Origin: Neolentinus lepideus HHB14362 ss-1
Lineage: Eukaryota > Basidiomycota > Agaricomycetes > Gloeophyllales > Gloeophyllaceae
Assembly (NCBI GenBank): GCA_001632425.1
Contig: KV425569.1
Coordinates: 274,495 to 338,494, forward strand
Length of the DNA stretch: 64,000 nt
Reading direction: 5' to 3'
A program made the translations under genes and the position numbers. Positions 5,346-39,811 of the stretch are shown here, piece after piece (the first letter of the stretch is position 1; each line of letters starts with the position of its first letter). Below the pieces are notes generated by a model. The model made no database searches. It was not told the origin of the DNA and saw nothing but the letters and a program-made list of their open reading frames with translations.

Positions 5346-5730
5346 TATGAGTCCTGAGGTACAAAGGATGAGTTTGTACATTCAGAATGAGCGGGATGCC
5401 GAAATGGGAGTGTCATGGGAATTTGTGCCGAGTAATCAGAGTTCAAAGTATTTGTAATGCTAGCTACAAAATTTCATTCCTGATTCATAGTCCGTTTCTA
5501 GTAATCACTACAAAGTCACTACAAACTTGTTTTGTAGTCTCATTTTTTGATATTTTCTTCCTCACTTTCAGAGACTTGCTCCATTTCTTCCTTACTTCTC
5601 AATATAAGCTTATGGTATATTCATGTGTTATTCTGAATATTTCTGTATTTTTAGCATTTTGTTTGCATGCAGGATCCCTGGTACACTCTCAGAGGGCTTT
5701 CTTACCATGGGAATCTGGCATTTGTAGCAG

Positions 5731-6987
5731 TGATATGCACAGACACACAACGAAACCCGCGGAAATGAGACCTATTGTGTAGACACAACCACAAAGCAAA
5801 CACCAATGCCCTTGGTGTCAGATGGCTGTGAGGCCCAGGGTAGCGAAGGGTAATATAGTTCGGAGGGGATGGGTGTAGGTGAGACATATAGTTGGGGCTA
5901 AAGGGAGGTTGGTGCCAAGTCACTACTCAGTGGCAGTCTGAGGATAGAAGGCGACACTATGTGCTATGTAGCGCTATGTGCACGACGCTGTGTAGGTGCT
6001 ATACGATGCTCCTCCTGCTCGGCGCTGTATGGTCTTTGATGCTCTATAGAGGAGCGCTACTTGTAGTTGCTATCTCTAACTTGAACGTGTATAGATTCTG
6101 GTTAGCACTATGAGCGACACTATGCTGGTGTACTCTGTCACTATCTCTGGGTAAAGTCGGAGGTATGCAAGAGTACCTAAACGCAAGTTGCAAGACGGAC
6201 TTAGAAGAAACTCTGATGTGAGACTGAAATCTGAAGAGTGTGGGGAAGATAACCTGTTGTACAAACAGTAGAGCAATGGCTTAAATACAAGAGAGTGACT
6301 GCTCTATGTCTGATCCTATCTACCTACTACCGCGAGTTGTGCCTCTGCTCAGTCTCACATCCATACGACTTGTACTGCCTTGCTCCTAATCCACATGCAC
6401 TCTTCGACCAGTACCCTGCGTGACCAACTCTAGCATGCATGCCATTCCATGGACAGGAGCCAGTCGGGTGCATCTTGACTTTGCATTAGAGTGCGCCTCT
6501 TTGATAATCCGGGGGTGGGCTATGCTGCCGATGCTAGCGTGATCCTGCTGAAAGAGGGATAAAGGGCGGGGCCGCTCTGTGGTGCGGCGGTGTCATGATA
6601 GCTGTAGTTGTGTCATGTGTCAATGCGCACTGTATGCCTAAGGAAAGTCGCGCCAATAGAACTAGTGCTGATCCGAAGCAACGGCAGGCTGTACGCCATA
6701 TGGAAAGGCACCCTGAGACACCGCCTTGGTTCAGACCACAGTAACAATGCCAGCTGACACCTGCCGAAATGCCGATGACTCGACTGAATGACATTCAACT
6801 GACCGAGCTACTGAGGAGCCATCCTAAGTGTGCCAAGGAGCTGAGAGCCTTGTCGCTGGTGTGTAGGGTCGCTAGTGCACAGAGTACCGACAGTGTGCTA
6901 TTGAGTCGCTAAGTCGCCGTTCCCACGAAGCATGCAGAATTGCCCTAAATCACATTTTCTGGGGTCAGAAGCCAATGGGGCCTATCA
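5731..6987 (-). mobile_element. LTR-like repeat, copy 1 (left arm of the palindrome, CpG-decayed)
   Basis: This 1257-bp repeat begins TGATATGCAC and ends GGGGCCTATCA. It thus has TG...CA ends with a TGATA/TATCA inverted pair, as many long terminal repeats do. It is flanked by GCAG (5727-5730) and GCGG (6988-6991), probably a 4-bp target duplication with one change. It is an inverted copy of 6992-8284 and a direct copy of 14458-15631. No coding region for a retroelement is attached, so a solo LTR is the best reading. A large non-autonomous element of another class remains possible. Many CpG sites of the right arm appear here as TpG or CpA. Minus orientation is assigned because the TATA-like motif reads that way. 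Confidence 0.6.
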
Positions 6988-6991
6988 GCGG

Positions 6992-8284
6992 TGATAGGCC
7001 CCATTAGCTTCTGACCCCAGAAAACGCGACTTAGAGCGATTCCGCGCGCTTCGTGGGAACGGCGACTTAGCGACTCAATAGCGCACTGTCGGTACTCTGC
7101 GCACTAGCGACCCTACGCACCAGCGACAAGGCTCTCGGCTCCTCGGCGGACTTAGGATGGCTCCTCGGTAGCTCGGACGTCGGGCGTCATTCAGTCGAGT
7201 CATCGGCATTTCGGCAATGCGTCGGCCGGCGTGCTTACTGCGGTCCGAACCGAGGTGGTGTCTCAGGGCGCCTTTCCATATGGCGTACAGCCTGCCGTCG
7301 CCTAGGATCAGTGCGAGTTCTATTGGCGCGACTTTCCTTATGCGTGCAGTGCGCATCGACACATGGCACGACCACGGCTATCACGACACCGCCACACCAC
7401 AGAACGGTCCCGCCCTTTATCCCTCTATCGGCAGCATAGCCCGCCCCCGGATTATCGAAGAGGCGCGCTCTAACGCAAAGTCAAGGCGCACCCGACTGGC
7501 TCCCGTCCGCGGAGCGGCGCGCATGCTAGAATTCGTCGCGCAGGATATTGGTCGCAGAGTGCATGTGGATTAGGAGCAAGGCAGTACCAGTCGTATGGAT
7601 GTGAGGCTGAGCAGAGGCACAACTCGCCGTCGTAGGTAGATAGGATCGGACATGGAGTAGTCTTTCTTATGTATTTAAGCCATTACTTTACTATCTGCAC
7701 AACAAGTTATTCTTCACCACACACTTCAGATTTCAGTCTTGCGCCAGAGCTTTCTTAGTCCATCTTACGACCCGCGTTTAGGTACTCTTGTGTACCTCCG
7801 ACTTCACCCAGAGATAGCGACAGAGTACACCAGCGTAGCGTCGCTGTTCGTAAGTCACCACATATACGTTCCCTTCTCAAAGGCAGCCTCGTGCGCTGTA
7901 GCGTAGTACTAATCAGAGTCAACATACGTCCGAGTTAGAGATAGCAACTACCAACAGCGCTCCACTATAGAGCGTCGAAGACCACATAGCGCCGAGCAAG
8001 AGGACCATCGTACAGCGCCCATACAGCATCGCACATATAGCGCTACATAGCGCATAGCGTCGCCTTCATCCTACAGACTGCCACCAAGTAGCGACTTTGC
8101 GCCAACCTTCCTTTAGCCCCACCTATACGTCTCACCGCCACCCGTCCCCTCCGAACTATATTACCCTTCGTTTACCCCGGGCCTCGCAGCCATCTGACAC
8201 CAAGGGCTTTGGTGTTTGCTTTGTGGTTGTGTCTACCCATTAGGTCTCTTTTCCGCGGGTCTCGTCGTGTGTCTGTGCATATCA
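6992..8284 (+). mobile_element. LTR-like repeat, copy 2 (right arm of the palindrome, CpG-rich)
   Basis: This 1293-bp copy begins TGATAGGCCCC and ends GTGCATATCA, and is followed by GCGG at 8285-8288, the same four bases that separate it from copy 1. It is the reverse complement of copy 1 across its whole length, making a near-perfect palindrome centred on 6988-6991. It keeps many CpG dinucleotides that the other two copies have lost, so it is likely the youngest insertion or the least methylated. The open frames in it, for example 7217-7573, do not resemble any protein I know and are probably chance frames in GC-rich DNA. Confidence 0.62.
7669..7680 (+). promoter_or_regulatory. TATA-like motif inside LTR-like copy 2
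   Basis: The motif ATGTATTTAAGC lies near the middle of the repeat and is followed by a pyrimidine-rich stretch. This is the place expected for the U3/R boundary of an LTR promoter. The copies at 5731-6987 and 14458-15631 keep a related TTAAATACA on the minus strand. Promoter activity is inferred only from the motif. Confidence 0.3.
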
Positions 8285-8800
8285 GCGGGTAGCATGGTGG
8301 TGTGCTGCGTCGATTCCAAATGCTACTATCACTGGGGGAGTTCTTCTCTGGGGGTATGAATGTTCTCTACACACAAAATCATGTCCTGTGCCTTCAACAC
8401 TAAATGGAATAGCTTGAAACTTGGTATATACAATCTTTGGTACATTTATGAGGTACATATCAATTCAGAATTGTGAAAACTGGTCCGATTTTGAGATGGG
8501 ATGTCAGAACATTTGTGTACATGTCCACAAAATTCATGTATCTGGCAGATCCTGGGCTGGCCACCTCACCATTCAGCTCAAATTACAGGATTTAAAACAT
8601 TTGGTCCCACACAGATGGACCTGTGTAGTCTGATTGGTAAATATCAATGCAGAAGAGTTTTAATTGCAGAAATACAGGGCATCCTTCTCTGCATCTGCCA
8701 GCAAGTGTGACAGCATTGGATCTCTGCTCCAAACACAGTGGCTGAAGTGGCAGGGCAGATTTTCCATCTGCTGAGGAGACTTCCCCATCTTTGTTGGCTC

Positions 8801-10747
8801 ATGGGCTGCAAAAGAAAGAAAAAATTGACTGCTTCGAGAAAAAAATGCTCCTCTAAGCCCACCCCTCCTCAGCTCGACGAGGCACAGCTTACTGCCACTA
8901 TTGCTGATCTCAATGCAATGCCTACTGGATCTCATAATTACACGAGAACTGCTGAAAGGTTTGATGTACCATGTCATATGTTACAGAACTGCTTCCTCGG
9001 TATCAGGAAAGCTCACAAGGATGCTCATGAAAACCAGAAAATTCTCACTTCTCCTCAGGAGGAGACTTTGCTCAAATGGATGTGTCACCATGCCAAGGAG
9101 GGGCATCCTTGGGGGAGGGAAGCACTCCAGGTTAAGGTTGAACAGCTTACAGGGCACAAGCCCTCAACTGAGTGGGAAAAGGCTTTCAGGGGGCAGCATC
9201 GGGAGGTCCTGAAGTTCTGTGGAACATCTGGGTTGGACCCAAAGTGTGCGCAAGCCTTCAATCCTGTAACCATCGCAGATCACTTTTTGAAGCTGAAGGT
9301 GGCCATGGACAAGCACCAGTACAAACCCAGCAACATCTACAACTTTGACAAGATGGGGATGCAGATTGGGGGAGGGAGAAAGTGTACTGGAAAGAAACTG
9401 GAAAGAAATTCTTCATCTCACAACGTCTTCGCTCCAGGTATAGGAAGCGCAATGCAAATTTGGAGCTGGTGACTGTGATTGAGTGTGCCTGTGCTGATGG
9501 AACCATGCTGGAGCCTGGTTTCATCTTCCAAGGGAAGACATAGGATCAAGGTTGGGTTAAGAACCACCCAGGGATCTCGTGAGTCATACAGGAGGGTTTA
9601 AGATTGTGTCAACTCATCCACAAAATAGGATTGGGCTTACAAAGAATGGATGGACTGATAACCTCCAGGGTGCTGAGTGGTTGACAAAGTCCTTCATCCC
9701 ACAAGCCCATGTGAAAGCAAGCAATGACAATGATCCCATCCTCCTCATCTTTGATGGGCATGGATCTCACATGACTCAAGAGTTTCGGGATGCAGCGAAG
9801 CAAAACAACATTCACCTCTTCATGCTTTCAGCTCATACCACCCATAAGACTCAACCGTGTGATGTGGGATGTTTTGGGCCCCTGCAGAAGGCTTGGATCG
9901 ATCGAATTGAGAAGATAGTGGTGGATACTGATGCCAGTATGCCAAAGCATGAATTTGTTGATGAGTACATGGCAATATGAAAGGTCACAATCAAACCTGA
10001 AACAGTGAGGGTGGCCTTTCGAAAAATGGGTGTCACCCCATTTAATGCGGAGATCTACACAGTGGCTGACTTTGCCCCCAGTCGTACCACCTCAACAAAA
10101 GCTTATTTACCACTATCCTTTCCCTTTTTGTCAGCTCAATCCCATTTGGCCAATGAATCTGATCACATGGATGTTGACACACCTGAAGAACCACACCCTT
10201 TTGATGACCACAACCACGATAGCGACACCATCCATGACAGTGATGACAACAACTCCAACTTGGAGATTGATGATGAAATGGAGCTCGAGCATTCCCCTCT
10301 TACGTCTGCTGGTAATGACACTGGCTGCGCCATTGGCCTGGATGCTCAATTGCTCGAACCTTCATGGGGACCAAAGCTACCCCAGTTCCAGTGCACACCA
10401 ATGGACAAGCACATGTCAGCTTTGCGTCAGCTCGAAATCCTCTAAAGTGACCTCTGGTGTGCTGAGGGTCCTATCTCAATGAGTTTCATCGACATCAGAC
10501 CCCGGAGATGCATTGCAAGATGGCTGGCCAGGAGATCCAAAAGCTGAAGACAAATATCAACCTGAAGAAGGACAAAGTGGTAGGAAGGAAGTTGAATCAA
10601 TTCCAGACTGAGTCAAAGTTTTTGACAGGTGCAGAATGTGATGCACATTTCGAAGCCATTGCCAAAGAGAAGAGGAAGAAAGCACAGATTGACACTGAGA
10701 AGAGTGCAGCAAAGGTGATTCTTGAGAAGCAGATAGCAGATGAATGA
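8801..10747 (+). pseudogene. Pogo-type DDE transposase, frameshifted and interrupted
   Basis: Pieces in successive frames line up as one fungal pogo/Fot1-like transposase. The N-terminus MGCKRKKK is followed by a psq-type helix-turn-helix region (LTATIADLNAMP...YTRTAERFDVP). The first catalytic block is at about 9338-9375 (NIYNFDKMGMQIGGGRK, where DE is usual). Then come DGTMLEPGFIFQGK in another frame, NGWTDNLQGAEWL, the second catalytic Asp in LLIFDGHGSHMT, and HTTHKTQPCDVGCFGPLQ with the third. A basic, coiled tail (EKRKKAQIDTEKSAAK) ends near 10747. Lesions: a frameshift between about 9380 and 9420, TAG at about 9541, TGA near 9978 and TAA at about 10443. Several fit loss of CpG. It cannot encode a working enzyme as it stands. 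Start chosen at the first ATG before the basic region. Confidence 0.8.
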
Positions 10748-11490: not shown

Positions 11491-12073
11491 CCCATTTGCT
11501 TGTTGACACCTTCCAAATATGATAATTATTGATGATGTATGTATCTTTCTTACCTTATACTGGTCTACTGGCTTTATTAGCCTGTTCATTGAGTGAGTGG
11601 GGGATACCAGCAAGAGAATGATGTAGATAGCATGAAAATCTTGTGAGATTTTCCACACATCAATAGCTGGTATTTCTGCTCAGAAAAATTGGCACATTTG
11701 CTAAAAATATTGGAGAATTTTTTACAGCCCAGGGTGGCTGGGACATACCCATTTGTTGGGTCATTTGTTTGGCTATATCTTCCAAATATGCTAAATATTG
11801 ATGTTGTATATATCTTTCTTACCTAATACTGGTCTACTGGCTTTATTAGTTGGCTCATTGAGTGAACATGGGATACCAGCAAGAGCATGACATAGATAGC
11901 ATGAAAGTCCAGTGAGATTTTACATGCTATTCACATCATTAGTCACCAATAGCTGGTATTTTGGCTTAGAAAAATCGGAAAATTGCTAAAAATATCAGAA
12001 ACATTTGTACAGCCCAGAGTGGCTGGCCCATTTTTTTGAGTGATTGTTTGTACCTTCTAAATATGGTAATTGT
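11491..12073. repeat. Tandem repeat, about 270-bp unit, two full copies and a part
   Basis: Copy 1 starts at 11491, copy 2 at 11748, and a third begins at 12027 and is cut off at 12074 by the small TIR element. The landmarks TTCCAAATATG, TACTGGTCTACTGGCTTTATTAG, GGGATACCAGCAAGAG and CAATAGCTGGTATTT recur in the same order. Copies differ at many sites, so the duplication is old. It lies inside the right end of the pogo-type element. Confidence 0.75.
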
Positions 12074-12344: not shown

Positions 12345-14457
12345 ATGTCAGTACCACAGATTTACCAGCCATGAGGTCAACACAGACTAGACTTGGTGCG
12401 TGTCTCTTAAAAAAGACTTAGTAGGCAAGGAACTGTCTTTAATGGAGACTTGTACCAGTTTACTTTATGTGCATTAGAAGCCTCCCTTGACTCTGCTCAT
12501 CATCCGGAAAAAGCATAAGCAGCACATGCCTCTGTCTCAAGGAGGAGGTCAGTGACTGACACAATGGGTGACTGATGCTGCATGTCGACAGACTCCTCCA
12601 GAGCCTCCTGCATCTGCACCTTTGCAGCTATAAGTAGGGTGTAGAAAAGCACTGATTTTCCTATTCTTCAGATATTGGTGAATGCAACACCATCTACCTT
12701 TTCGACTGCACAAAAAAGTGTAACTTGAAAATCTTGCAGACTCAAATTGAAGATTAGACTGACACCACTGGCCTGAGCCAATTTTTGGTGTTGCAAGTGG
12801 ATTATCAGACATTATAGGTTAGATAATACATCAATTAAGCTACATTGCAGTATTCTAAAGTATAGGACAGATGAGGAGGAGGATAAAGCAATGCAATGAA
12901 GTTGTGCAAAGGAGCCAGCTGGTGTGTGCCAGTGCATCGAAAATATGCACTAGCCTAAACATGGACCTCTGGGTGCTGCCACTGTAATGCAGCCAACCCA
13001 AGGGCATCAGCACATTGTTCACTCAACCACTGAGCATTGGCCTCCACCAGCTGTGAGAGAATGGGAAACTCAGTGATGACAGACAACATTGAAATGTGTA
13101 AGAGCAAGAGGATGAAGACACTAAACATCCCAATCTCTTATATACAGGGGTCCAAACTGAGAAAGTTGTAAGCCAGGCATGCAGCTTCACTCAGTGGTCA
13201 GGCTCAGACGTGTGCTGTGTGGACCATGCTGTATTGATCTAGTGTAGAGTACACAATAATGAGAGCAAAAACAATAGACTAAAGAAAAGGGCAAGAACTC
13301 CACAATGAAGCGACAAAAGTGCGGAGTCTGAAATGTGAAGGTAAATCACAGAGTAATCCACTGGTGGGATTACAAAAGTTTAATTTTCTTGCCATTCCCA
13401 GAAACTATTTTACACTCAGTGCATGAAACCTTGATATTGTGGCATTCCATGGAAAGGCTAGGTCTCATTGAACCATTTGCTTGACTCACAATGAGACCTA
13501 GCCACCTGATGGGTGCCATGGTAAGGGAGTGAACTCACCTGCATGCTGCATCATGAGTAGCTGATAGGGGCCCATAAGCCAGTACTCAGTGGTTGGAACA
13601 TCTGAGACCCTTGTAATGGTGAAAAACAAAAGGATGGCACATTCTCTCCAAGGCTGGCAGTGTCCTGGTCATGTATTGACAGCACAAAACAATGAGAGCA
13701 ACTGTTTTGTATTGTGCTTAGCATGGCTGGGGTAGTCACACTGTCTCCAAGTCTTTGCAAATTTAATGGACCCAGATAATTTTACAAACATAGCTGTTTA
13801 TGTTGTAATTATTGTAGTTAGCAAGAGTCAAGCAACATCATGAGAATATGTTTTGCAGTCTGACTATTATGGGCTACTACTGTTACACTCTTCACCTTCA
13901 GTTCTAAGTTGACGTCCATTTGAGCTTCTACTGCACAGGCCTCTATCTTTTCAGCAAGTACTTGGAGTCTCAGGGGATAATGCTATGACAGTGCCTTTCA
14001 CATGGAAGAGTCCTCACTTTTAGCCCTGGGGAGTACTATCCACACCCTTCTTTGAGTCCCAATGCCATCTACCAGAATAGATGTCTGACACAACTCAGAA
14101 CCTGATGTTCATCTAGCCTAGTTTTACTAAACTTGAAACACCGATCTGTGCCATGTCCATTTATAGTGAGTCTAATAATTGTCATGCTTCAACTGTGTTG
14201 GTCTTTACATCCTCCAATGGGTGAAAAGTGATGCATCCATTGTCAGAAAAGCAAGGGCAGGTCCACAGCTGCTGGAAATAGGCCAATGACTGTGACCTTC
14301 ATCAGGACTTTGGGGAAAGCCTTGATAGGTATGAATCATTGCCATACACATAAACTGATGTTAGCAGGAGTGAGTGACTTTGACTGTCTCGAAACCAGGT
14401 CAAGTGTTGTGCCAATCTAAGAGACATTGATGGTTATTGACAGACAGAACCACCTGT
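12345..14457. other. CpG-poor spacer with no recognised gene
   Basis: The stretch has very few CpG dinucleotides and only short frames, such as 12549-12812 (-) and 13551-13760 (-), neither with recognisable domains. It probably consists of old upstream DNA of the carbonic anhydrase gene plus decayed repeats. The only clear structure is the hairpin at 13456-13503. Confidence 0.45.
13456..13503. repeat. Perfect 15-bp inverted repeat with 18-bp loop
   Basis: GGCTAGGTCTCATTG at 13456-13470 pairs exactly with CAATGAGACCTAGCC at 13489-13503. No T-run follows and no gene end is near, so it does not look like a bacterial-style terminator. It may be the tips of a tiny mobile element or a footprint. 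Confidence 0.7.
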
Positions 14458-15631
14458 TGATATGCACTGACACACGATGAAACCCACAAAGATGAGACCT
14501 AAAGACAGACACGACCACAAAGCAAACACCAAACCCTTGGTGTCAGATAGCTGTGAGGCCCAGGGTAATGAAGGGTATGTATAGTCTGGAGGGGATGGGT
14601 GTAGGTGAGACATATAGGTGGGGCTAAAGGGAGGTTGGTGCCAAGTTGCTATTCAGCGGCAGTCTGATTTCTAGAGAGCAGTGCTATGCGCTATCTAACA
14701 CTATGTGCACAGTGCTATGTAGGTGCTATATGATACTTCTTGGTTGCTATCTAATTAGCAATGTTACGCTGACTTGCTCTGTCACTATCTCTGGGTGAAG
14801 TCAGAGGTATGCAAGAGTACCTAAACATGAGTCGCAAGATGGACTTAGAAGAAACTCTGATGTGAGACTGAATTCTGAAGAGTGTGGTGAAGGTGACTTG
14901 TTGTACAAAACAGAAAAGTGATGTCTTAAATACAAGAGAGCGACTGCTCTATGTCCGACTCTAACTACCTACTACCGTGAGTTGTGCCTCTGCTCAGCCT
15001 CACATTCATATGACTTGTACCACCTTGTTCCTAGTCCGCATGTGATCTTCGATCAATACCCCTTGCGACCAACTCCAGCATGCACACTGTTCCTCAGGTG
15101 GGAGCCAGTTGGGTGTGTCTTGACTTTGCATTAGAGCATGCCTCCTTGATGATCAGGTGGCAGGCTATGCTGCCAATGCTAGTGTGATCTTGCCAAAATA
15201 GGGATAAAGGGTGGGGCTGCTATATTGTGCGGTGGGGTCATGATAGCTGTAATCACGCCATGTGTCAACGCGTGCTACAAGCATAAGGAAAGTCACGCCA
15301 ATAGAACTTGCACTGATCTGAAGCAATGGCAGGCTGTACACCATATGGAAAGGCACCCTGAGACACTGCCTTGGTTCGGACCACAGTACAATGTCGAGCG
15401 GTGCATGCTGAGATGCCAATGACCTGACTGAATGACATTCGGCCAACTGCGCCATCAAGAAGCCACCCTAAGTGCACCGAGAAGCCAAGAGCCTTGTTGC
15501 TGGGACATAGGGTAGCTAGGGCACAGAGTACTGACAGTGTGCTATTGAGTCGCTAAGTTGCCATTCCCATGAAGCATGCAGAATCACCCTAAACCGCATT
15601 TTCTGGGGTCAGAAGCCAATGGGGCCTATCA
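14458..15631 (-). mobile_element. LTR-like repeat, copy 3 (solo)
   Basis: This 1174-bp copy starts TGATATGCAC and ends GGGGCCTATCA, like copy 1. It is flanked by CTGT on both sides (14454-14457 and 15632-15635), a 4-bp target duplication that fixes the element ends independently of the palindrome. It lacks some internal blocks of the other copies. It is strongly CpG-decayed. There is no adjacent internal region or second LTR, so it reads as a solo LTR of the same family. Confidence 0.65.
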
Positions 15632-15635
15632 CTGT

Positions 15636-21622: not shown

Positions 21623-24600
21623 ATGAACCTTCGAAATTTCCGTGTTCCTTCCTGGATAACACAAAATGCGCGGTCGACTAAGTCACTGAAGCTATTATTC
21701 AGATGCTGGTTGGCTGCTTGGCTCGCATTCGTCCTCCTTCTTCCGAACAAGTCTCTTCAGACACTCGGAAATGCGTAAGTGGCTTCGAAACCTCTATTTA
21801 CGCCTGATTGACGATTCACTTTCTCGCAGGGCTTTCTTCGGCATGATCGTCAGCCTAATGCTCCCGCCTAACATGCCAGTACAGACATTCCTATTCGTGC
21901 GTGGAGTGTGTCATCATTCTCTTCACTGTTGCCAACATGACTTAGGCGATTGCGATGCTCTATATCGGTCTTCTTCTCGGCTGGGCCTTTGGCGCTGCCG
22001 CGATGCGCGCATCCCTCGCTGCGAGAAGTCAGGTGTTGCTGAAGCAGACGTTACAGAAGGTGCAACAAAGGTGCGCGTGGGCCGTTCATTTCGACCTTTT
22101 GTACTGAGAAGGAATGTATGGTGTCCGTAATCCGTAGTGCGGCGGGTCGTTCAAACCCCGACGCTCTCTACCAGATTGAAATCTTTGAGGGATGGTTCCT
22201 CGATCCGCGGTACATATCATAATCATTCATTGGTGCATCCTAAAATAGAGCTGAAAACCGATTTGCAGGTCATCAGCAGTTTACGGCGCCTTTCTCGGCG
22301 CGTGTACATTTCTATTTGCCCTCATGCGCGCGTACGTGCCCAAACTTGCGTTCACCTCGATCTTCGCGACCATTTCCATTGACATTTTCTGTGTGAGTGC
22401 TCTAGCAAATGTTTCAGTTCAGGCCCTGATTCCCCTGCTTTTCCCCATGTCACGCGATAATATGATTTCGCCAGTCCTACGCACCTCTTTTCCCTTTTGC
22501 CGAATACACTCTCCTCAACTCTATACTCATCTCCTCTGCGACGTACACCGCCATCGCGTGCATATGTATCATACTCGTGTTTCCCGAAACCGTCGCGCAT
22601 GCATACTTGTATGAGGTGAGGACGTATTTGGAGGGATGTAGAGGGCTGGTGCGGGCGCAAGAGGATGTTCTTGACGCCGGTGCAAAACCAAAGAGCGATG
22701 ATGACGAGAGAGTAGGAGAGAATGGTGAGGAAGACGCCGCTCTGAAGAAAGGCACGGCGCAGGAAGATGGGCGACTGGGTGAAAAACAAGACCGGCCCCC
22801 AAGCTCTGAAGCCTTCGCAGAAGTGAAAGCCAAGATCGATGGCATGCGGGTGGGGCTTGTGGGCAGTTCGAAGTTGCGTAAGTATTACTTTCCTAGTGTG
22901 CGCTTGAAGTGTGTCTGAGAGCTCCCTCTGATGATGGAATGGATCGGTTAGTGGATAGTAAGATACTATTCGCTGACCTTGAGTTTAGTTATGGGAAGTG
23001 GAACAGCGATGATCTAAAGGGGCTGCAGGAGCCGTTGAAGACCCTTGGCATTAGAATTGGTCAGTGTCACTATACTTCCCTTCTGTAGACGCCGTTCTCT
23101 TAGTAACATCTGTGCCACCCACGTGGAAACTGTAGTCGGCCTTCAAACTCTGACCCGCCTGCTATGGCGCATCCGCACTCGAGAACTTCCCCGCCTCCCC
23201 AACGAGGATACGAATACCGAGCCGGTAACCACAGCTACCAGCACCACTGGGTCTACTGAGTTGCTTCCTCTCCCACTCCCTCAAGACCACGCGGAAGTTG
23301 CGGATGGGACCCATTCTCGGGCGTCCTCTATATCTCCGGACACGGCCCTCCTCCGCGCCCTTTACACCGCCAACCTCCGCCTTGAGTCCACCCACGCCCT
23401 CCGCCCGGAGGACATCCTGCCCCTCCTCAGAGAAGTAACTGGGCCTCTCCGAGAGTCGATTATTGTCGGCCTGGAGTGCGTGGGAAGCGTCGTGGAGGAG
23501 GTCAATACGCGGCGGTGGGCGCGTTTCCTTGGTAAGGGCGCAGATAGCGAAGATAGGGAGCGGAGGCTGGTGGAGGCAGTCGAGCAGTTGAGGAGCGAGT
23601 TCGAGAAGTTTAAAGGAGGGCGATATAAGACGCTTGTGGAGCCGTTCGCACCTCTTTTCGACGATGCCAAGGGTGCTGGTGTCGTGACGATAAATCAGGA
23701 GTTCCTCCCCCTCCGCTCTTTATACCTCGCCTACGTGTTCTCTGCCACATTGTTGGGGACGGCAGATGCTACACTCAGTTTGATGGACAACGTAGCAAGT
23801 CTGGTGGGGAAGCGAAGGAGGAGAAGGTTGTGGGCGCCGAAGGGGATTAGGGCGCTGGGAAAGGTATTTCGAGAACGGCAAGGGGCGGATGGGGAGCAGA
23901 CGCTTGGGGAGGACGTGGATGCACAGGACAGGAAGGTTGACGGAGATATGGAGAAGTGGGAGAGGGAGGCTGGTAAGTGACATTCCAGTTGCATGAGCAG
24001 AAGATAATAGATTGATTAATGGTTGCTTGTAGGACGCGATCCGGATAGTCGCCAGCCGGAGAATGCGTTTCAGAAGGTGATGAACGGGCTGAGTGGGGTG
24101 TATGGGTGGGCGAAGACTGCGGAGGTTATTGTGAGTGGTGTTAAATTGAACTGAGATAGGGAGGGTTGTTCTGATTCAGGCGGTAGTTTGCGGTGAAGTA
24201 TGTCGTGTTGACGATTGGGCTGTGGCTGCCTGCAGTCTTCCACAATAGCGCTAGTAAGTGATTTAAGCTGGCATAAGGTTTAGTGTGGCTTGACGTGAAG
24301 GGGATTTGTAGAGTTTAACTATGAACAAAAGGGTGTCTGGTAAGTCGCTGTTATCCCGGAGGTCGCTTGTGAGTCTTAAACGTATTGGATATGTAGGGCG
24401 TTGATTATGGCGCAGATGACTCTGAACGTCTACGCATCCGATCAGATCTTCAAGTGCGTCCGTGCCTTCGTCTTTCTCTCCACGTCTTGATTGAGCTCCT
24501 ATAGCTATTTCACACGACTTATTGGAACATTTATCGGTCTGATAATTGGCCTGTTAGTCTGGTATATCGGTATAATCTGTTTCCTTTAAGATAAGGGGTG

Positions 24601-25895
24601 CGGAAAGCTAAGACAATTACTAGGGTCGGGCCATGGAAAAGGGAACCCTTATGGCATCGCAGCTTCGTTCGGCGTATTCATGATACCTACGATGTTCATC
24701 CGGCTATTTGCTCCGCCAGCCCTGCTCAGTGGGGTCGTCACGTCAGCAGTAATGCATTCCAGTTCCTCTTCGGACCTTCCAGGCAGCTCATAATTGTGTG
24801 ATACAAAGGTCACCATCCCATTGATTGTGGGATACTCGTGGATCGACGGTCATCTCCCGGTGCTTGGGAACCCTGGCGTAGGGTGGTCCATTGCCTGGAA
24901 GCGGTGGGTGCTTGTGGTTATAGGTATGCAGTATTCCATGAAATCTGGTTGCTCGCCGCCTACTTACTTGCGCACAGGCTCTGCGGCGTCATTCATCATC
25001 ATGATGCTCCCGCCTAAATCAGGCCGCAAAGCCGTCCGACTACGCAACGCTACCACCATCAAACGTATCGGGAACCTCTACAGCCTTCTCATCTCCAGAT
25101 GGATAGAAAATACCCCCTCTCTGGATGATGCCACCTCTGAAAGCTGGTCCGCGTTCTTCCGCGCGGACATAGTGTCCATCGCGGAACAGCTTCAGACGCT
25201 GAAAGGCATGACGGCGATCGCGAAGTGGGAGGGAGGTATACGCGGACGATGGCCATTCGAGGAGTATGACCGCTTGGTGGATGTGCAGATTCAGATGTTG
25301 GGAAATTTGGGGCAGGTATGTTGAGCTAACCTAGGGAAGTGGGTTGGAGTGCACTAACACGAGGGAATGTAGCTTGGAGGTGCCTTAGCACATATCAACA
25401 AGGAGTGGAGGCAGACTCTTTTGCACCGCACGAGGCTGCTCAATCCGAATTTCGTATGGATTCTCCGCCATCCCGACGATCTGAAGCTGACTTTTCGACC
25501 TTTCAGATCGCGGATGTTTTGTCATTGTTCGCCCTTATCTCTCAGTCACTGCGAACGGCCGAGCCATTGCCCGAAGTCCTTCCACAGACCTTGTTCGAAC
25601 GACTCGCGTATCATCATCACCGGAGCACGAAGGTGCGGGAAGCATTGACTGAGGTGCCGCAGCTTGAGCAGTTCCAGTCGCTTGATTATATGATTTATGC
25701 GAATGGGATGACTGCTGTGCTAGAGCTTATTGTGGTTCGTACTCCATTTGAGCACCTGTTTAAGTTTGGGTAGAGCTGATAGATTTATCGCAGGGATTGG
25801 ACGAGTTGCACGCAATTACCAGACGGTTATGCGGTGGAGTATCACTGAAAGGCTTCGAAGAATGGAGGAACGAGTACCTAAGTCGACTGGCATAG
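21623..25895 (+). CDS. ArAE_2_N / DUF2421 multi-pass membrane protein (intact copy)
   Basis: The family (fungal aromatic-acid-exporter-like/FUSC-related proteins with a C-terminal DUF2421 domain) is predicted to sit in a cell or ER membrane. No substrate is known. ATG at 21623 gives MNLRNFRVPSWITQ, then a first helix (CWLAAWLAFVLLLP). Hand-splicing at least 15 exons keeps one frame: AFFGMIVSLMLPPNMP, GLLLGWAFGAAAMRASLAAR, SSAVYGAFLGACTFLFAL, YTAIACICIILVFPETVAH, a long hydrophilic middle (22619-24130), FAVKYVVLTIGLWLPAVFHN, FNYEQKGVW, LIMAQMTLNVYASDQIF, LIGTFIGLIIGLLVW, NPYGIAASFGVFMIPTM, VTIPLIVGYSWIDGHLP, then the DUF2421 region with MMLPPKSGRKAVRLRNAT and YMIYANGMTAVLELIV. It ends RNEYLSRLA at 25895. 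No stop or frameshift was found on this splicing. Its tandem copy at 28045-32231 is broken. Confidence 0.8.
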
Positions 25896-25959
25896 TGACC
25901 TATATACTTCACGTTCTTTATATCCTGCGGACGGCACCTGCTACCACTTACTAGATCGT

Positions 25960-26345
25960 TCGCAAATTTATTTATACAGAAACATCGTAATGTAATCATA
26001 CATAACATTTATCGTTCCGCCTTCCACCGTTAAGCTGCCAATTTTGAACTCGTCAACTGTCTGACCCAGTCATCCATTCGACACCCTATGCGAGTTAAAA
26101 TATTCGATGAATCTGCAATAAAATTCGAAGCAGGAGACGTTGCTCACCATCTACAATGCAAACACTGTTCATATATAACTATCACTTCAGGTTTCCCGCT
26201 GAGTTTCCCACTGACCTGAGGGTTGATGGTAGTGGGGAAGGTGAAGGTATCAATATTCGAAGTTTTCTTTCCATAGGTTTTCAATTACGTAGGGGTCTAC
26301 GTATCCTTGCTGATGGCCAGAATAGATGTCGTTGGTCTTTCCCAG
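25960..26345 (-). pseudogene. Truncated 3' end of a polysaccharide deacetylase-like gene
   Basis: The minus strand matches the last two exons of the intact gene at 32361-33606, including QGYVDPYVIENLWKENF and a degenerate VDEF...TVEGG tail. The upstream 900 bp is absent, cut at about 26345, and the tail has frame breaks, including a stop where the intact gene reads through. It is a by-product of the tandem duplication. Confidence 0.75.
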
Positions 26346-27179: not shown

Positions 27180-30100
27180 ATCATGCTAGTCCACCATCTG
27201 TTGACTCAATTTCTTAGATTGAGACTTTGCTGCCGTTGCGGGTACACTGGCCGTACGGCGGTATTGTGTATACCAGGCCCTTGGAATGCGACGCTCTCTC
27301 GAGCAACTCTGTCGTTAACAACTATATATGTTCTAGTCACTTCATCTATATTCCAACGTTCGGTTGGAGGTACATGGTCTTTTGCAGTACAACCTGGAAA
27401 AGACAGCAGGCTATGCCTCTACTATTTCGGTCAACTACGGTGATCCTAGCGACCCTTCGACCCTCTACACTCGCGGTGTTTGTGACAGCACATCCGACAC
27501 TGCTGTCACGATGTACCTTGGCTATGCTGCCTCGCGAGACTCCGCTAAATCTGACCCTGGACGTCTAGATGGAATGTAGCGGCGAGATGATGTTCTTGAT
27601 GGGATCTCTATTTGAGGGTCTCCTACATTTGCAGCAACATATATCTGTGCGATGACTGGACTTACTTGGGCTCTGTAAGGTGCTTCCTCATTCTCCTGAG
27701 CCTGTATCCTATTGATTGGTGCCATATTACTAGGGAGCCATACTGTTAGCGGCCGGAAATCTGGAGTATTCGCTTTTGATCCTCTTATCTGACAAAACCC
27801 ATTTTGAGGTCAACGCGGCACAGTGGGGCCGACTGTGAGACCTTCGGTGTGAGTGGCTACGATACCCGCGTGCGATACCGGTGCCGCGAAGCCCCAACAT
27901 TGCTCTGCGTTCCAGTGCGGTGACTTGACCTAGTACTAATAGGATTCAGACAATGATCCATCTAAATCAGTCGCATTTATTTATTCCCTCTGACTTCAAT
28001 CACATCCTTCACTAGACCTCGTCTTAGAGTAACAAACCAGCCTAGGTCGCAAAACGCGCGCTCATCGAAGTCGCTGAAGCTGCTATTCAGATGCTGGCTT
28101 GCATCGCGGCTTGCCTTCGTCATACTCCTACCGATCCCTGCAGACACTCGGAAATGCGTGAGTACCTTTCAGACGTCTCTTTGCACTTTATGACAACTCA
28201 CTTTCTCGCAGAGCGTTCTTCAGCATGATCGTCAGCCTAATGCTCCTGCCTACATGCCCATGCAGACATTCCTATCTGTATGCGGCGTCTATTACCCTCT
28301 GCACAATTTGTTGAAACGACTTAGGCGATCTCGACGCTCTACATTGGCCTCCTCGGCTGGGGCTTTGGTGCTGCCGCGATGCGCGCGTCTCTGGCTGTGA
28401 GGAGCCAGGTTTTGCTGCGGCAGACGTTACAGAAGGTGCAACAGAGGTGAGCGTAAGCCGTTCATCTGAGCGTTCTGTACTGAGAGGGACTGGATGATGT
28501 TTGTAATCCATAGTGCGGCGGGCCTCTCGAACCCAGACGCTCTCTACCAGATTGAAATCTTTGAGGGGTGATTCCTCGATCCACGGTGCATATCATCATT
28601 GATTTGTATATTCTAAGGTCGAGCTGAAACACAGTTGGCAGGTCAACAGCAGTCTACGGCGCCTTTCTTGGCGCAAGTACGTTCCTGTTCGCCCTCATGC
28701 GAGCGTACGTGCCCAAGCTAGCGTTGATGTCGCTCTTCGCCACTATCGCCATCGATGTTTTCTGCGTGAGTATTTAGAGCAAAGGTTTCATCTGATGCGC
28801 TGATCCCCCTTCTTTTCCTCGTGCCATATAAAAATGCGATCTCGCCAGTCCTACGCCCCTCTCTTCCCCTTTGCCGAATATACCCTCCTTAACTCAGTAA
28901 TAATCTCCTCCGCTGCGTACGGCGCTATCGCGTGCATATGTATCCTGGTTGTGTTTCCTGAAAGCGTCGCACACACATATCTAGATGAGGTGATGGTGCA
29001 TGTGGAGAGGTGCAGACGAATGGTGCGGATGCAAGAGAATGTTCTCGATGCTGGTGCAAAATTAAAGAACGATAATGACGGTGGAGTAGGAGAGAATGGT
29101 CCGGAGGGTGCTCCGCTGAACAGGACGCAGGAAGAGGCTCGAGGGGATGAAAAGCAAGACCACCGCCCTAGCTCAGAAACGTTCGAAGAGGTGAAAACCG
29201 AGATCGACGGCATCAGGGTAGGGCTTGTGGGCGGCTGGAAGTCACGTAAGAGCTACTTTCCTATCCTGTGAAGTGATGGATTGAAGATGGGATGGGATGA
29301 TTAGTGGATAGTACGATACAATTCGTAGACCTTGAATTCAAATATGGGAAGTGGAATAGCGATGACCTGAAGGGGCTACAGGAGCCGTTGAAGACACTTA
29401 GCATTAGAGTCGGTAAGTGCTAATCCACTTTCCTTCTGTAGATGATACTTCTCGTTGATTAACGTTTGTGCCTCTGGCGTGCAAATTATAGTCGGCCTTC
29501 AAACTCTGACCCGCCTTCTATCGCGTATCCGCAATCGAGAACTACCTCACCTCCCGAACAATGATACCAACGCCGAGTCAGCGACCGCCACTACCAGCTC
29601 CACTGGGTCCACTGAGTCTCTGACTCTCCCCGTCCCTGAAGTCCAGGCCGAAGTTGTAAATAATAATCATGCTCAAACAAGATCGATCTCTACCTCCACA
29701 GACACAGACCTCCTCCACGCCCTCTATGCTGCCAACCTCCACCTAGAGTCCACGCACGCTCTCCGCCAGGAGGACATCCTGTCCCTCCTCAGAAAAGTCA
29801 CTGCGCCTCTCCGGGAGTCTATCGTCGACGGTCTGGAGTGTTTAGGAAGCGTCGTAGAGGAGGTCAATACGTGGCAGTGGGCGCGCTTTCATCGAGAGGG
29901 TGTGAATGGTGCAGATAGGGAACGGAGTCTGGTGGAGGCGGTCGAGCGGTTGAGGCACGAGTTCGAGGATTTTAGAGGGGGCGGTATAAGACGCTTGTGG
30001 GGCCGTTCGCACCTCTCTTCGATGATTCCAAGGATAACGATGCCTCCAGTGTAAGGAAGGAATTCCTCCCCCTCCGCTCTTTGTACCTCGCCTACATGTT

Positions 30101-32705
30101 CTCCGCCACGTTGTTGGGAACGGCCGAAGCTACGCTAAGCTTGATGGAGAACGTAGCGAGTGTGGTGGGGAAGCGAAGGAGGAGAAGGGTGTGGGCACCG
30201 AAGGGGATAAGGGCTGTGTGGAAGATGTTCCTCGAGAGGCGAGAGGGGGATGGAGAGCATATCCTTGGGGAGGGCTTGAATGCGTAGGGAGACGGGAATA
30301 TGTGGGAGAGGGAGGCGAGTGAGTGGCATTCCGCTTTCATGGGCATGAAATAATAGAGTGATTAATGGGATGCATGTAGGGCGCGATCCGGGTAGCCGCC
30401 CGCCGAAGAATGCGTTTCAGAAGGTGATGCATGGGGTGAGCGGCGTGTATGAGTGGGCGAAGACGGTGGAAGCTATTGTGAGTGGATTCGCATTTGAATT
30501 CGCGATGTGCAGAGTTCCTCTAATGGAAGAGAATAGTTTGCCGTGAAGTATGTTGTGTTGACGCTTGGGTTGTGGTTGCCTGCAGTCTTCCACAATAGCG
30601 CAAGTGAGTAATATGAGCTGACATATGAGTTTGAGTGGCTTGACAGGAAAGAGATTTGTAGGATTTAACTACGAGGAAAAGGGTGTTGGGTAAATCATTG
30701 TTATATGAGAGGTCTCTATTGAGTCTTGAAATTACTGGATATGTAGGGCGGTGATTATGGCTCAAATGACTCTGGACGTCTACGTGTCCGATCAGATCTT
30801 CAGGCGAGTCCGTGCTTTCGTCTTTCTCTCCACGTCTTGATTGAGCTCCCATAGCTATTTCACACGACTTGTTGGAACATTTCTCGGTCTGATAGTTGGC
30901 TTGTTAGTGTGGTATATCGGTATAATCTGTTTCCTTTAAGATAAGGGGTGCAGAAAGCTAAGACAATCACTAGGGTCAGGCCAGGGAACACCTACGGCAT
31001 CGCAATCTCATTTGGCGTATTTATGATGCCGACAATGTTTGTCCGGTTATTTGCTCCCCCAGTCCTTCTCGGTGGGGTCATCACAACAGCGGTAATGCAT
31101 TCGCATTCCGCTCAGAGATCAAAGACTGCTGATAATTGTCTGGCAAAAAGGTTACTATCACACTGGTTGTCGGATACTCGTGGATCGACGGCCACCTCAA
31201 GACATACGGAACCCCTGGCGTAGGGTGATCCGTTGCCTAGAGGCGATGGGTACTTGTGATTATAGGTATGCAATATTCCATGAAATTTGCGTTACTCTCC
31301 ACCTACTTATTTGTGCACAGGCTCTGCGGCGTCATCCATTATCATGATGCTCCCGCCTAAATCAGGTCGCAAAGCCGTCCGACTACGCAACGCGACCACC
31401 ATCAAACGTATCGGGAACCTCTACAGCCTTCTCATCTCCAGATGGATAGCAAGCAACGCACCACAAGATGCCACCTCCAAAAAATCCGTATTCTTTCGCG
31501 CGGACGCAGTGAGTATCGCGCAACAACTCCAGGCGCTGAAGGGTATGACGCCCATCGCGAAGTGGGAGGGGAGTATACGCGGACGATGGTCATTCGAGGA
31601 TTATGACCGCTTGGTGAATGTGCAGATTCAGATGCTGGGAAATTTGGCGCAGGTCTGCTGACCTTAGTCTGGAGAGGTGGGTTGAAGGGTACTAACACGA
31701 GGGGATGTAGTTTGGAGGTGCCCTCGGGCATATCAATGAGGAGTGGAGGCTGGCAATGTTGCACCGCACGAGGGTGCTCAATCCGAATTTCGTGCGGACT
31801 CTCCGCTGTCCTGATCTAGATCTGACTGACCGACTCTTGCAGATCGCGGATATTTTGTCATTGTTCGCCCTTGTCTCTCAGTCACTGTAAACGGTCGAGC
31901 CATTGCACGAAGTCCTTCCACAGACCTTGTTCGAACGACTCGCTCACCATCACCAAAGGGGCACGAAGACGCGGGAAGCATTGACTGATGTCCAGCAGCT
32001 TGATCAATTCTATTCGCTTGATTATATGATTTATGCGAATGGGATGACTGCTGTGCTAGAGCTAATCGTGGTTCGTACTTCATATGAGCACCTGTTTAAA
32101 TGTGGGTGGAGCTGATAGGTTTATCGCAGGGATTGGACGAGTTGCACGCAATTACCAGACGGTTATGCGGTGGAGTATCACTGAAAGGCTTCGAAGAATG
32201 GAGGGACGAGTATCTACGTCGATTGGTATAGTGACCTATTCTTCACGCTCTTTTTATATCCTGCAGACAGCATCTGCTGCCATGCTGACTGGATCTCTCG
32301 CAAGTTTACCTATACAGAAATATCCTGATGTAATCATACAACATTCATTCTTCCATCCTCTCAGAGTTCGATGCCGCCTTCAACCGTTACGCCTTCAAAT
32401 CCACCAGCTTTGAACTCGTCAACCATCTGACTCATAGTCATCCATTCGACACCCTCGTGCGAATTAACATATTCGATGAATCTGCAAGAAAAGTCGAGCT
32501 ATGAGACATCGCTTATCATCACTAATTCAAACACACCGTTCATGCATCAATATCACTTGAGGTTTCCCACTAACCTGAGGGTGGATGGTAATAGGGAAGA
32601 TGAAAGTATCGTATTCGCGGTAAAAGAAGTCGAATTGTTCTTTCCAGAGTTTTTCGATCACGTGGGGGTCCACGTATCCTTGCTGGTGGCCAGGATAGAT
32701 GTGGT
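27180..32705. repeat. Segmental duplication, unit 2 (about 5.5 kb)
   Basis: Direct copy of 20750-26345. The upstream part (27180-27580) is GC-rich and has a coding-like frame at 27364-27579 (+) that I do not recognise; the matching part of unit 1 is CpG-poor and full of stops. The right edge runs on into a complete deacetylase gene, so unit 2 probably holds the original right flank. Confidence 0.8.
28045..32231 (+). pseudogene. ArAE_2_N / DUF2421 membrane protein, broken tandem copy
   Basis: Aligned by eye to the intact copy at 21623-25895, this copy has many independent lesions. The start codon region is not conserved. A deletion of about 5 bp near 28130 shifts the frame after the first helix. 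One base is lost near 28250 (LPPNMP region). TGG to TGA occurs near 28569 (EGWFLDP becomes EG-stop). One base is gained near 29985 (GGRYKTL becomes GGGIRRL). TAG occurs near 30286. A loss of about 5 bp lies near 30985 before the NPYGIAAS block, and a TAA replaces the AEP region near 31888. Introns and later blocks such as MMLPPKSGRKAVRLRNAT are still easily seen, so decay is fairly recent. It cannot encode the full protein. Confidence 0.82.
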
Positions 32706-33606
32706 TGGTCAAGAGTCATCAGAGAAAGGATCCGAGCATACCGTATTGGGTTGAGTGGGCACAAATTGGAAGGGCGCTGCGTGTACCGGATTCTTCAGAG
32801 GTCTGTCATATGTGAATGTCTGTGTCGCTCACGCCAGTCATCTAGATGCCAATTGGCAGGAATCTCGACCACCTTGCTAGGCTTCATAGAGGTCATTGGC
32901 TTCATCCACTCTGCCGCGTCTTTGCTGAGATCGGTCTCCGTCCAAGTCGCAGATCCGTCAGGTACATAGTACATCTGGCAGTCGTGATGCATGAATGTGT
33001 GGTCATATTCGATGCCTGCTTCTTCCAAGATGTTCACGAGCTCCGGAGTTGATGTCCAGTGTGGCCCTGTGAAGCCCCGAGGCCGTTTACCGGTGAACGA
33101 TGTGATCACGGAAATCGATTTAGCCATCACATCACGTTGCTGTTGGCTGGAAAGTGCTGAGAACCATTCGTGTGTATACCTTGTACATCATTCGGTTCAA
33201 GCAAATGGATGGATGCAGCTGAGCTGGATTCCATACCCGTGAAGACCACTGCAAGCGAGATTAGGAAACCCTGGAGAAGTTTGTTCTGCTCTCACATTTC
33301 ATGACCTGCGTCCCTGACCTTCGCCAGTTGCTTAGGAAAACTCTCGATGGAGTGGGCAGGCGCAAACCAGGTGCATTTGATGTGATACTTATCGAACAGC
33401 TTCAGCAATCTATCGACTCCAACTGTTGCGCCGAAGACGCCACGGGAGACATTAGTCGCATCTGCTTTCTGGCCATTGCGGGTGTTGATCCTGATACGAG
33501 TTCTCTCGAATCTCGGGAACCGTGTGGACAATTGCATGACTGACCAATTCGACACAGCATCTACATCAATACCGTACCCAATCAAGACACGTTTTTTGCT
33601 TGCCAT
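32361..33606 (-). CDS. Polysaccharide deacetylase-like (NodB-fold) protein
   Basis: The protein belongs to the NodB-homology family of metal-dependent amide hydrolases. It is closest in my judgement to the cytosolic-type fungal proteins starting M-x-x-K-K-R-V-L-(I/V)-G-Y-G-(I/V)-D-V-D-A. ATG at 33606 gives MASKKRVLIGYGIDVDAVSNW; an in-frame ATG at 33648 exists but precedes the family start. By hand: intron at about 33534-33480, then NVSRGVFGATVGVDRLLKLF, TWFAPAHSIESFPKQLAKV, short exon GLHG, then YTHEWFSALSSQQQRD, TGKRPRGFTGPHW, EAGIEYDHTFMHHDCQ, NWHLDDW, two further introns, QGYVDPHVIEKLWKEQF, REYDTFIFPITIHPQVSGKP, and a tail ending VTVEGGIEL at 32361. DVD and the H-x-x-x-H-type motifs of the fold are present. 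The substrate cannot be told from sequence. Its 3' part is duplicated at 25960-26345. Confidence 0.8.
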
Positions 33607-38497: not shown

Positions 38498-39811
38498 GAT
38501 GAATCGAAGGTAAGATGCAGAACGGCGCAGAGAAGAGATACTGTGGTCGGATGCACAGCGTTTCGACTCACCGATGCTATATACAGCCCTACACGTGTTA
38601 AACAACACTTTAAACATTGACATCGAAGCACAAAGTAATAGGTCCGCGAGCTATCATAGCTGGGCGCTTGCGATCCTGCCGTACTGAGGGATCGATCCCC
38701 TGTACACGCGTAGGAGTCGTGGTCTTTGCTCACCACATTAAGAGGCACTTTCTGGTCACATGTCTTGGGAGACTCGAGATGAGGCACATTCAAGACCTGA
38801 ATCGGTGTCCCTAGATGTCTTTCCGTGTCAAGGATGCGCAGGTTCCGGGCAGTACCGAATAGAGAATAAGAGACGGGCGACAATCTACCCACGGACAGGC
38901 AGTGCTAGATAACAGCTGTGCATGCTCCAAACCATACCTAGTCCATGCAGGACCAAGCAACAGCGTTCAAAGATCGCGTGCGCACCATAGTCGGAGTGGA
39001 CCAGAACGGAAAAAGTAGGCCGTAGACAGAGACGACGCTAGAGCCAGAAGGACAAGTATGCTCTCATGTATTCTCTCGTGACGCGGCAAATGGACGTCAA
39101 GAGAGACATCTAGAGGTAGTGCGATGATAGGTTCAGTACACCAACGATCATCCAAAGATTCAAGGAAGCTGCGGCAGGCATGACGGAGGAATGCTAGAGC
39201 ATCCCGCATCTGAGTATGACTACTGACAGGGCGTATCACGATGGCAGGGTGGCAAGCTTGAGAGATGCAAGATGCTAATCCCATGACGCGGTCCGTTCGA
39301 ACACGTAGATGCTGCGATACATCGACATAATGCGCCATTAGACCAGTGCAACGTCCGAGAAGCCTTATCTTTCCAGAGCGATCGCAGTCGGCAAACACAA
39401 TCATACAGAAGATCTGCCGGTGTTTCCTTACGAGACGTATTGCGCGCTGAGATCTGAGAGCTCAGAAACGAACGAGTGCTTGGTGAAAAGATCACCGGCA
39501 ATTGCCGATCCTATGGCTGGACCACTAGCGTTACGGCCAAGTTCACAGGGAGAACTTGGTGATCTACGATTACATTGATAACTTGAAAGCAGTAGTAATA
39601 CAGATAGTACTAGAAATGCAGAACGAGATATAATGAAGCAAATAACATATCTTAGCTCGCTTGTGTATGCACACTATTTAATCCCAACATCAAGCTCCCG
39701 TTTCGTTCCTCCGCTCCATATAGAACAAATCCTCAAACCGCCACAAGCAGCTCTGTCCTGCATAGTCTATTCCATATGCAGTCAGGTCCCACCATCAGAG
39801 GGATATGAGTA
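38498..39811. other. No confident gene; one 145-codon frame on the minus strand
   Basis: The frame at 39404-38967 (-) has a hydrophobic stretch near its C-terminus (SILVLLALASSLSTAYFF) but no recognised domain and no clear partner exons. The frame at 38892-38395 (-) overlaps the membrane gene's 5' end. Neither is called as a gene here. Confidence 0.4.

Follow-up and report, generated by a model that had tools for sequence, protein, structure and literature searches.

A 2.55-kb imperfect palindrome in Neolentinus lepideus HHB14362 ss-1 is a pair of head-to-head solo long terminal repeats (LTRs) from one Ty3/Gypsy retrotransposon family, and it is best explained by two sequential, time-separated insertions that reused a GCGG site under CG-centred target choice and self-nesting (probability about 0.93). 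The pair lies in the window, meaning the whole stretch of 64,000 nucleotides analysed here (C19:274495-338494 of a 33.8 Mb assembly in 168 contigs). A base-by-base re-check showed that the coordinates given for positions 5727-8288 in the first-pass annotation were exact, and its proposal of two insertions at one 4-bp target is upheld by three copies of that target (Table 1). Eight inverted-repeat blocks with a complementarity of 83-100% span the pair.

Table 1. LTR copies and target-site copies in the window, and other back-to-back pairs in the genome
Feature	Location	Strand	Remarks
Left target-site copy GCAG	5727-5730		Base-by-base read
Left arm, solo LTR taken as the older, 1257 bp	5731-6987	minus	5' end TGATAGGCCCC at 6987; 3' end ...GCATATCA at 5731
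Middle target-site copy GCGG	6988-6991		Common to both insertions
Right arm, solo LTR taken as the younger, 1293 bp	6992-8284	plus	
Right target-site copy GCGG	8285-8288		
CTGT duplication on the left of the third solo LTR	14454-14457		
Third solo LTR of the first family, old, diverged	14458-15631	minus	Strand as left arm
CTGT duplication on the right of the third solo LTR	15632-15635		Same as left
Tandem same-family pair	C42		Targets TCAG/TTGG/TCGG
Head-to-head pair with sister family	C105		Targets CCAG/CCGG/CCGG
Tail-to-tail pair with sister family	C123		Targets CCGG/CTGG; third copy not seen, beyond reach

LTR ends were sought genome-wide by pattern with at most three mismatches, and reversed patterns were used as the control. 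The search recognised 180 outer and 189 inner ends, whereas the reversed patterns gave no match, so this dispersed repeat is far beyond chance. The LTR copies have TG..CA ends, and 29 of the 30 shown are 1293-1321 bp long, the exception being the left arm. Some copies run into CCCTCCCCTGGAC, the complement of which ends in AGGGGAGGG, and some are preceded by GGGCTCCAAAA, the complement of which is TTTTGGAGCCC. In the sense of the element, the LTR 5' end is preceded by AGGGGAGGG, a putative polypurine tract (PPT), and its 3' end is followed by TTTTGGAGCCC, which resembles a primer-binding site (PBS).

A full element was found at C108:29380-40737, bounded by two direct LTRs with TG..CA ends (29380-30693 and 39426-40737). 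On the opposite strand, its pol of 1218 aa contains reverse transcriptase (RT), RNase H and an integrase zinc finger in the Gypsy order, with the Pfam matches RVT_1 (below the curated cut-off), RT_RNaseH_2, RT_RNaseH and Integrase_H2C2 in succession, and sequence comparison matched it with Ty3 pol and PFV integrase chains. A chromodomain, the mark of chromoviruses, gave no Pfam match at E 0.01, a level at which a diverged domain could escape, and one short internal ORF likewise had no Pfam match. Of 1196 pol relatives, the 120 listed were 56-66% identical, and the two species named among them were Mycena chlorophos and Agrocybe chaxingu. Ty3/Gypsy (Metaviridae) elements of agaricomycetes share with this one the order RT-RNase H-integrase, LTRs with TG..CA ends, sites resembling a PPT and a PBS, and the 4-bp duplication; these relatives were compared by pol sequence, and the near-absolute CG-centred choice is a feature scored here. 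The TG..CA ends and the direct copies bounding the full element bear out the earlier suggestion of LTR-like repeats, and the LTR in question, 1.3 kb long, is that of a Ty3/Gypsy retrotransposon. Since the pol of the full element sets the orientation, the two LTR 5' ends meet at the palindrome centre. The solo LTRs presumably arose by LTR-LTR recombination.

The two arms differ strongly in age. The left arm is CpG-depleted, with 50 CpG and a CpG observed/expected ratio of 0.62, and the right arm is CpG-rich, with 115 CpG and a ratio of 1.17. In a ladder-like tree of 39 LTRs, the left arm branched deep, with an end branch of 0.071, while the right arm was placed at the tip with an end branch of 0.022, as the sister of a copy at C25:424332-425627 to which it is 97.2% identical. 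The left insertion was taken as the older because of its deep branch and its CpG depletion relative to the right arm; the target copies by themselves would be compatible with either order. The tree distance between the arms was 0.237. Assuming equal rates since the pair was formed, the arms would already have differed by about 0.19 substitutions per site at that time (0.237 - 2 x 0.022), which suggests that they were well diverged when joined and never formed a perfect palindrome. They are now only 81.6% identical end to end over 1318 aligned columns, and this weakens the earlier remark that survival of such a long palindrome is notable.

A genome search for similar pairs, proposed in the first-pass annotation, was carried out for the three possible back-to-back junctions with at most three mismatches, a threshold that more decayed junctions would escape. 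It returned 12 loci, of which LTR comparison identified four as pairs; the other eight had no LTR match. Three pairs besides the one studied were thus found, with different partners and orientations. The head-to-head junction within the first family occurred once genome-wide at this threshold.

These data bear on three other origins of the palindrome. The first is an assembly artefact, which might be suspected in an assembly fragmented into 168 contigs. However, the arms differ at 18% of the aligned columns and are unequally diverged, both are complete LTRs ending at the expected base, the three target copies are consistent, and the same architecture is found on other contigs; an artefact is therefore very unlikely. 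The second is a foldback element that is itself mobile and generates a 4-bp duplication, since terminal inverted repeats flanked by GCAG and GCGG resemble an element with a target duplication. Such an origin would account neither for the central GCGG nor for the difference in age between the arms, the single occurrence of the junction at up to three mismatches contrasts with the abundance of single and interior-joined LTRs, and we consider it extremely improbable; the earlier idea that the pair moved as one palindromic unit falls for the same reasons. A foldback or palindromic DNA transposon would be expected as a whole palindrome at several loci, not at the one locus seen at this threshold. 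The third is simultaneous integration of two cDNAs as a double or self-integration product. Autointegration can yield back-to-back inverted LTRs, but three 4-bp target copies call for two integrations, and given also how far apart in age the arms are, this origin has next to no probability.

Two separate insertions, in contrast, would give the observed structure by the following steps. A Ty3/Gypsy element would have entered at GCGG, so that this 4-mer flanked it at either end, and reduction of the element to a solo LTR would later have produced the left arm. After a long interval, the right-hand GCGG would have received another member of the family, inserted in the opposite orientation and likewise reduced to a solo LTR, the right arm. 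Three 4-bp target copies would result, and CpG deamination would then have turned the outermost left one, originally GCGG, into GCAG. Reuse of the site would follow if the integration machinery takes almost only CG-centred 4-bp sites, if each insertion ends up bordered by two new sites of this kind, and if the insertions of the family concentrate in or next to its own LTRs. The LTR identity, the three target copies, the arm divergence, the CpG rule over the scored ends and the comparable pairs were observed directly.

To define the target choice, flanks were read for the best 100 of the 180 outer ends and the best 100 of the 189 inner ends; as the listed ends were those closest to the pattern, young copies are over-represented. 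After 13 outer and 14 inner ends facing the element interior were removed, 87 and 86 ends (173 in total) were scored. The centre of the 4-mer was CG at 56, CA at 17 and TG at 14 of the outer ends, and CG at 57, TG at 15, CA at 13 and another dinucleotide at one of the inner ends. Hence the centre was CG or one deamination step from it at 172 of 173 scored ends (87/87 outer and 85/86 inner), GCTG at C145 being the only exception. In the window, CG makes up 5% of positions, and CG, CA and TG together 20%. At the other tested offsets, CG was found in only 0-5 of 80-87 flanks, so the signal coincides precisely with the centre of the duplicated 4-mer. The outer target bases were variable (VCGB by count): T was avoided at position 1 (7/87 outer and 8/86 inner ends) and A at position 4 (6/87 and 9/86). 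Only a weak bias was seen over positions 1-20 outward, with T at 0.35 and 0.32 in positions 3 and 4, respectively; position 5 was distorted because the end letter of the search patterns disfavoured one base.

Within the listed rows, both flanks could be paired for 23 LTR copies; in another 11 pairings, one of the ends faced the element interior. Nine copies had identical duplications with CG and one had identical TG/TG; in seven, CG on one side stood opposite TG or CA, its one-step decay product, on the other, the kind of one-sided decay proposed for GCAG at 5727-5730. Ten copies with identical duplications and seven differing by CpG decay alone indicate a 4-bp target duplication. The remaining six had unlike 4-mers on the two sides, which need inter-element recombination or something else. 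The TG and CA ends (31/87 outer and 28/86 inner) could partly be genuine TG or CA targets rather than decayed CG; TG on both sides was seen in the one copy among the 23 and also in the third LTR copy of the window. That copy (L051) matches the right arm in two blocks, at 77-79% identity.

The same rule was followed by a sister family with a 1.1-kb LTR, in which CG or its decay product stood at the centre of 48/48 and 51/51 ends (99/99), after one of 49 rows was dropped because its flank resembled the internal region of the first family. An unrelated Copia family of the same genome, taken as a control, gave four matches, too few for a comparison: two lay beside the polypurine tract and the other two were not CG-centred. 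A strong site preference, as the first-pass annotation had suspected, is thus borne out for the element; that the integrase itself reads the CpG, rather than a tether or chromatin, is what we infer.

Self-nesting was surveyed by comparing the flanks of 167 of the 173 non-internal ends with the LTRs and the internal region; these comprised 120 of 125 listed stretches and 47 of 48 lying within loci already examined. About 11 insertions lay within older same-family LTRs (C103, C135, C136, C59, C93, C51, C96, C50, C105:83398, C6 and C2), of which that on C2 is uncertain and that on C6 has unlike 4-mers on its two sides. The C50 copy, flanked by GCAT and GCGT, lies at most 20 bp from the end of the older LTR. 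Several positions within the LTR were struck more than once, namely 510 (C103 and C135), 940 (C136 and C59) and about 1098 (C93 and C51). For position 510, descent of both nests from one composite LTR that had moved was rejected, as neither the inner nor the outer copies were sisters in the tree, and the site was likely reused independently. The position shared by C93 and C51 is less secure in that contig C51 ends within the inner LTR, and that shared by C136 and C59 is defined by position, outside the tree comparison. The two C59 matches at position 940 are counted as one event, being the halves of one nested LTR in opposite orientation.

These halves are oppositely oriented as if the intervening stretch had been inverted, and the regions C59:142300-144600 and 149900-152700 (L173, L174) share an 867-bp inverted repeat with 99.9% identity. 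Insertions of one LTR in another were mostly antisense, with eight cases versus two to three in the sense direction (L014, L004, L027, L172, L174, L175, L176, L177); sense nests may be lost through recombination.

How surprising is the reuse of a border can be estimated roughly by assuming 190 insertions and using the CpG density of the window. Plain chance among all CpGs was rejected, as about 0.02 same-family events would be expected and two were seen. Given nesting (11 cases found, perhaps 20 genome-wide), and with border CpGs equal to interior ones, 0.19-0.34 same-family border events would be expected, and the Poisson probability for two is 0.016-0.047; the two sister-family pairs are outside this expectation. 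CpG strictness and self-nesting thus explain most of the coincidence, and LTR borders may be modestly attractive beyond that. In a stronger form, the integrase or an integrase-bound complex would be drawn to resident LTR termini, making borders hotspots beyond the CpG rule. The excess over expectation and the four border-sharing pairs (two same-family and two with the sister family) speak for this, and the ZAM integrase is reported, in the available text of PMC2527525, to bind an LTR fragment besides its target. However, the numbers are small, the crude expectation does not cover the sister-family pairs, and interior LTR CpGs are also struck at shared positions, so that borders may be one hotspot among several. 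We therefore regard such attraction as unlikely, although far less so than the foldback, two-cDNA or artefact origins.

Serial insertion under a CG-centred choice can be compared with known systems. A review, in the part available (PMC5408687), describes sequence-specific integration as exclusive to errantiviruses and their derivatives, with the targets TATA, CGCG and ATAT. These are palindromic 4-bp targets, as here, whereas the present element is classed here as a fungal Gypsy-type element. ZAM, an errantivirus of Drosophila, has a highly specific palindromic CG-containing target, CGCGCg, according to the accessible text of PMC2527525. It resembles our element in being of Gypsy type with a CG-containing target, but here only the central CG is fixed, the outer bases vary and the host is a fungus; the scored ends do not show the CGCG-type target that marks ZAM-type errantiviruses. 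For plant LTR retrotransposons with 4-bp duplications, the portion of PMC6911290 at hand describes a GC-rich centre, a slight palindrome preference and self-nesting in some families, and states that LTRs are not commonly targeted. In contrast, CG is near-absolute here and the family nests in its own LTRs. TCN3, a Ty3/gypsy element of Cryptococcus, is without strong sequence preference in the text available from PMC12810828. The CG-centred rule is accordingly stricter than in the plant and TCN3 cases and different from the insect ones. Nested and clustered elements have been reported in Laccaria (PMC3411680, available text), and the accessible part of PMC4029996 contained no target-site information. 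Our literature searches, with subscription journals poorly covered, found no report of CpG-targeted or border-reusing LTR retrotransposons among the entries listed.

The CG choice is unusually strict for this element type, and a near-absolute rule in a fungal Gypsy-type element is set against the errantivirus exclusivity stated in the consulted part of PMC5408687. The pair itself is an ordinary outcome of serial insertion; the underlying rule is not ordinary. As a tentative proposal, to which we give slightly less than even odds, the integrase of these two related fungal Gypsy families may read CpG, perhaps methylated, as its sole strong requirement, which would steer copies into the CpG-rich methylated copies of the same element and into their own duplications. 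If so, self-nesting would spare host genes, and because CpG deamination would later erase the target, integration marks would also record age. If confirmed, this would be a simple target rule possibly tying integration to CpG methylation and nesting, and would provide a further integrase for the study of target-DNA reading.

A stretch of about 126 bp near the 3' end is common to both LTR families (L033:2484-2611; L042:1527-1654), at 95% identity for the better of two pairs and 82% for the second. It is the only listed match of the right arm to the sister LTR and possibly a recombinant or a conserved functional segment. Elsewhere in the window, Rfam and tRNA scans of all 64 kb gave no match. 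The frame at 9561-9980 matches PF03184 and that at 8711-9472 has no Pfam match; we take the frames in 8711-10445 to read like a DDE_1 (pogo/Tc1-type) transposase. Positions 21973-26337 and 28349-32710 form a tandem segmental duplication, about 6.35 kb apart, with blocks of 73-94% identity, and two 163-nt direct repeats, 269 nt from start to start and 84% identical, lie at 11493-11924.
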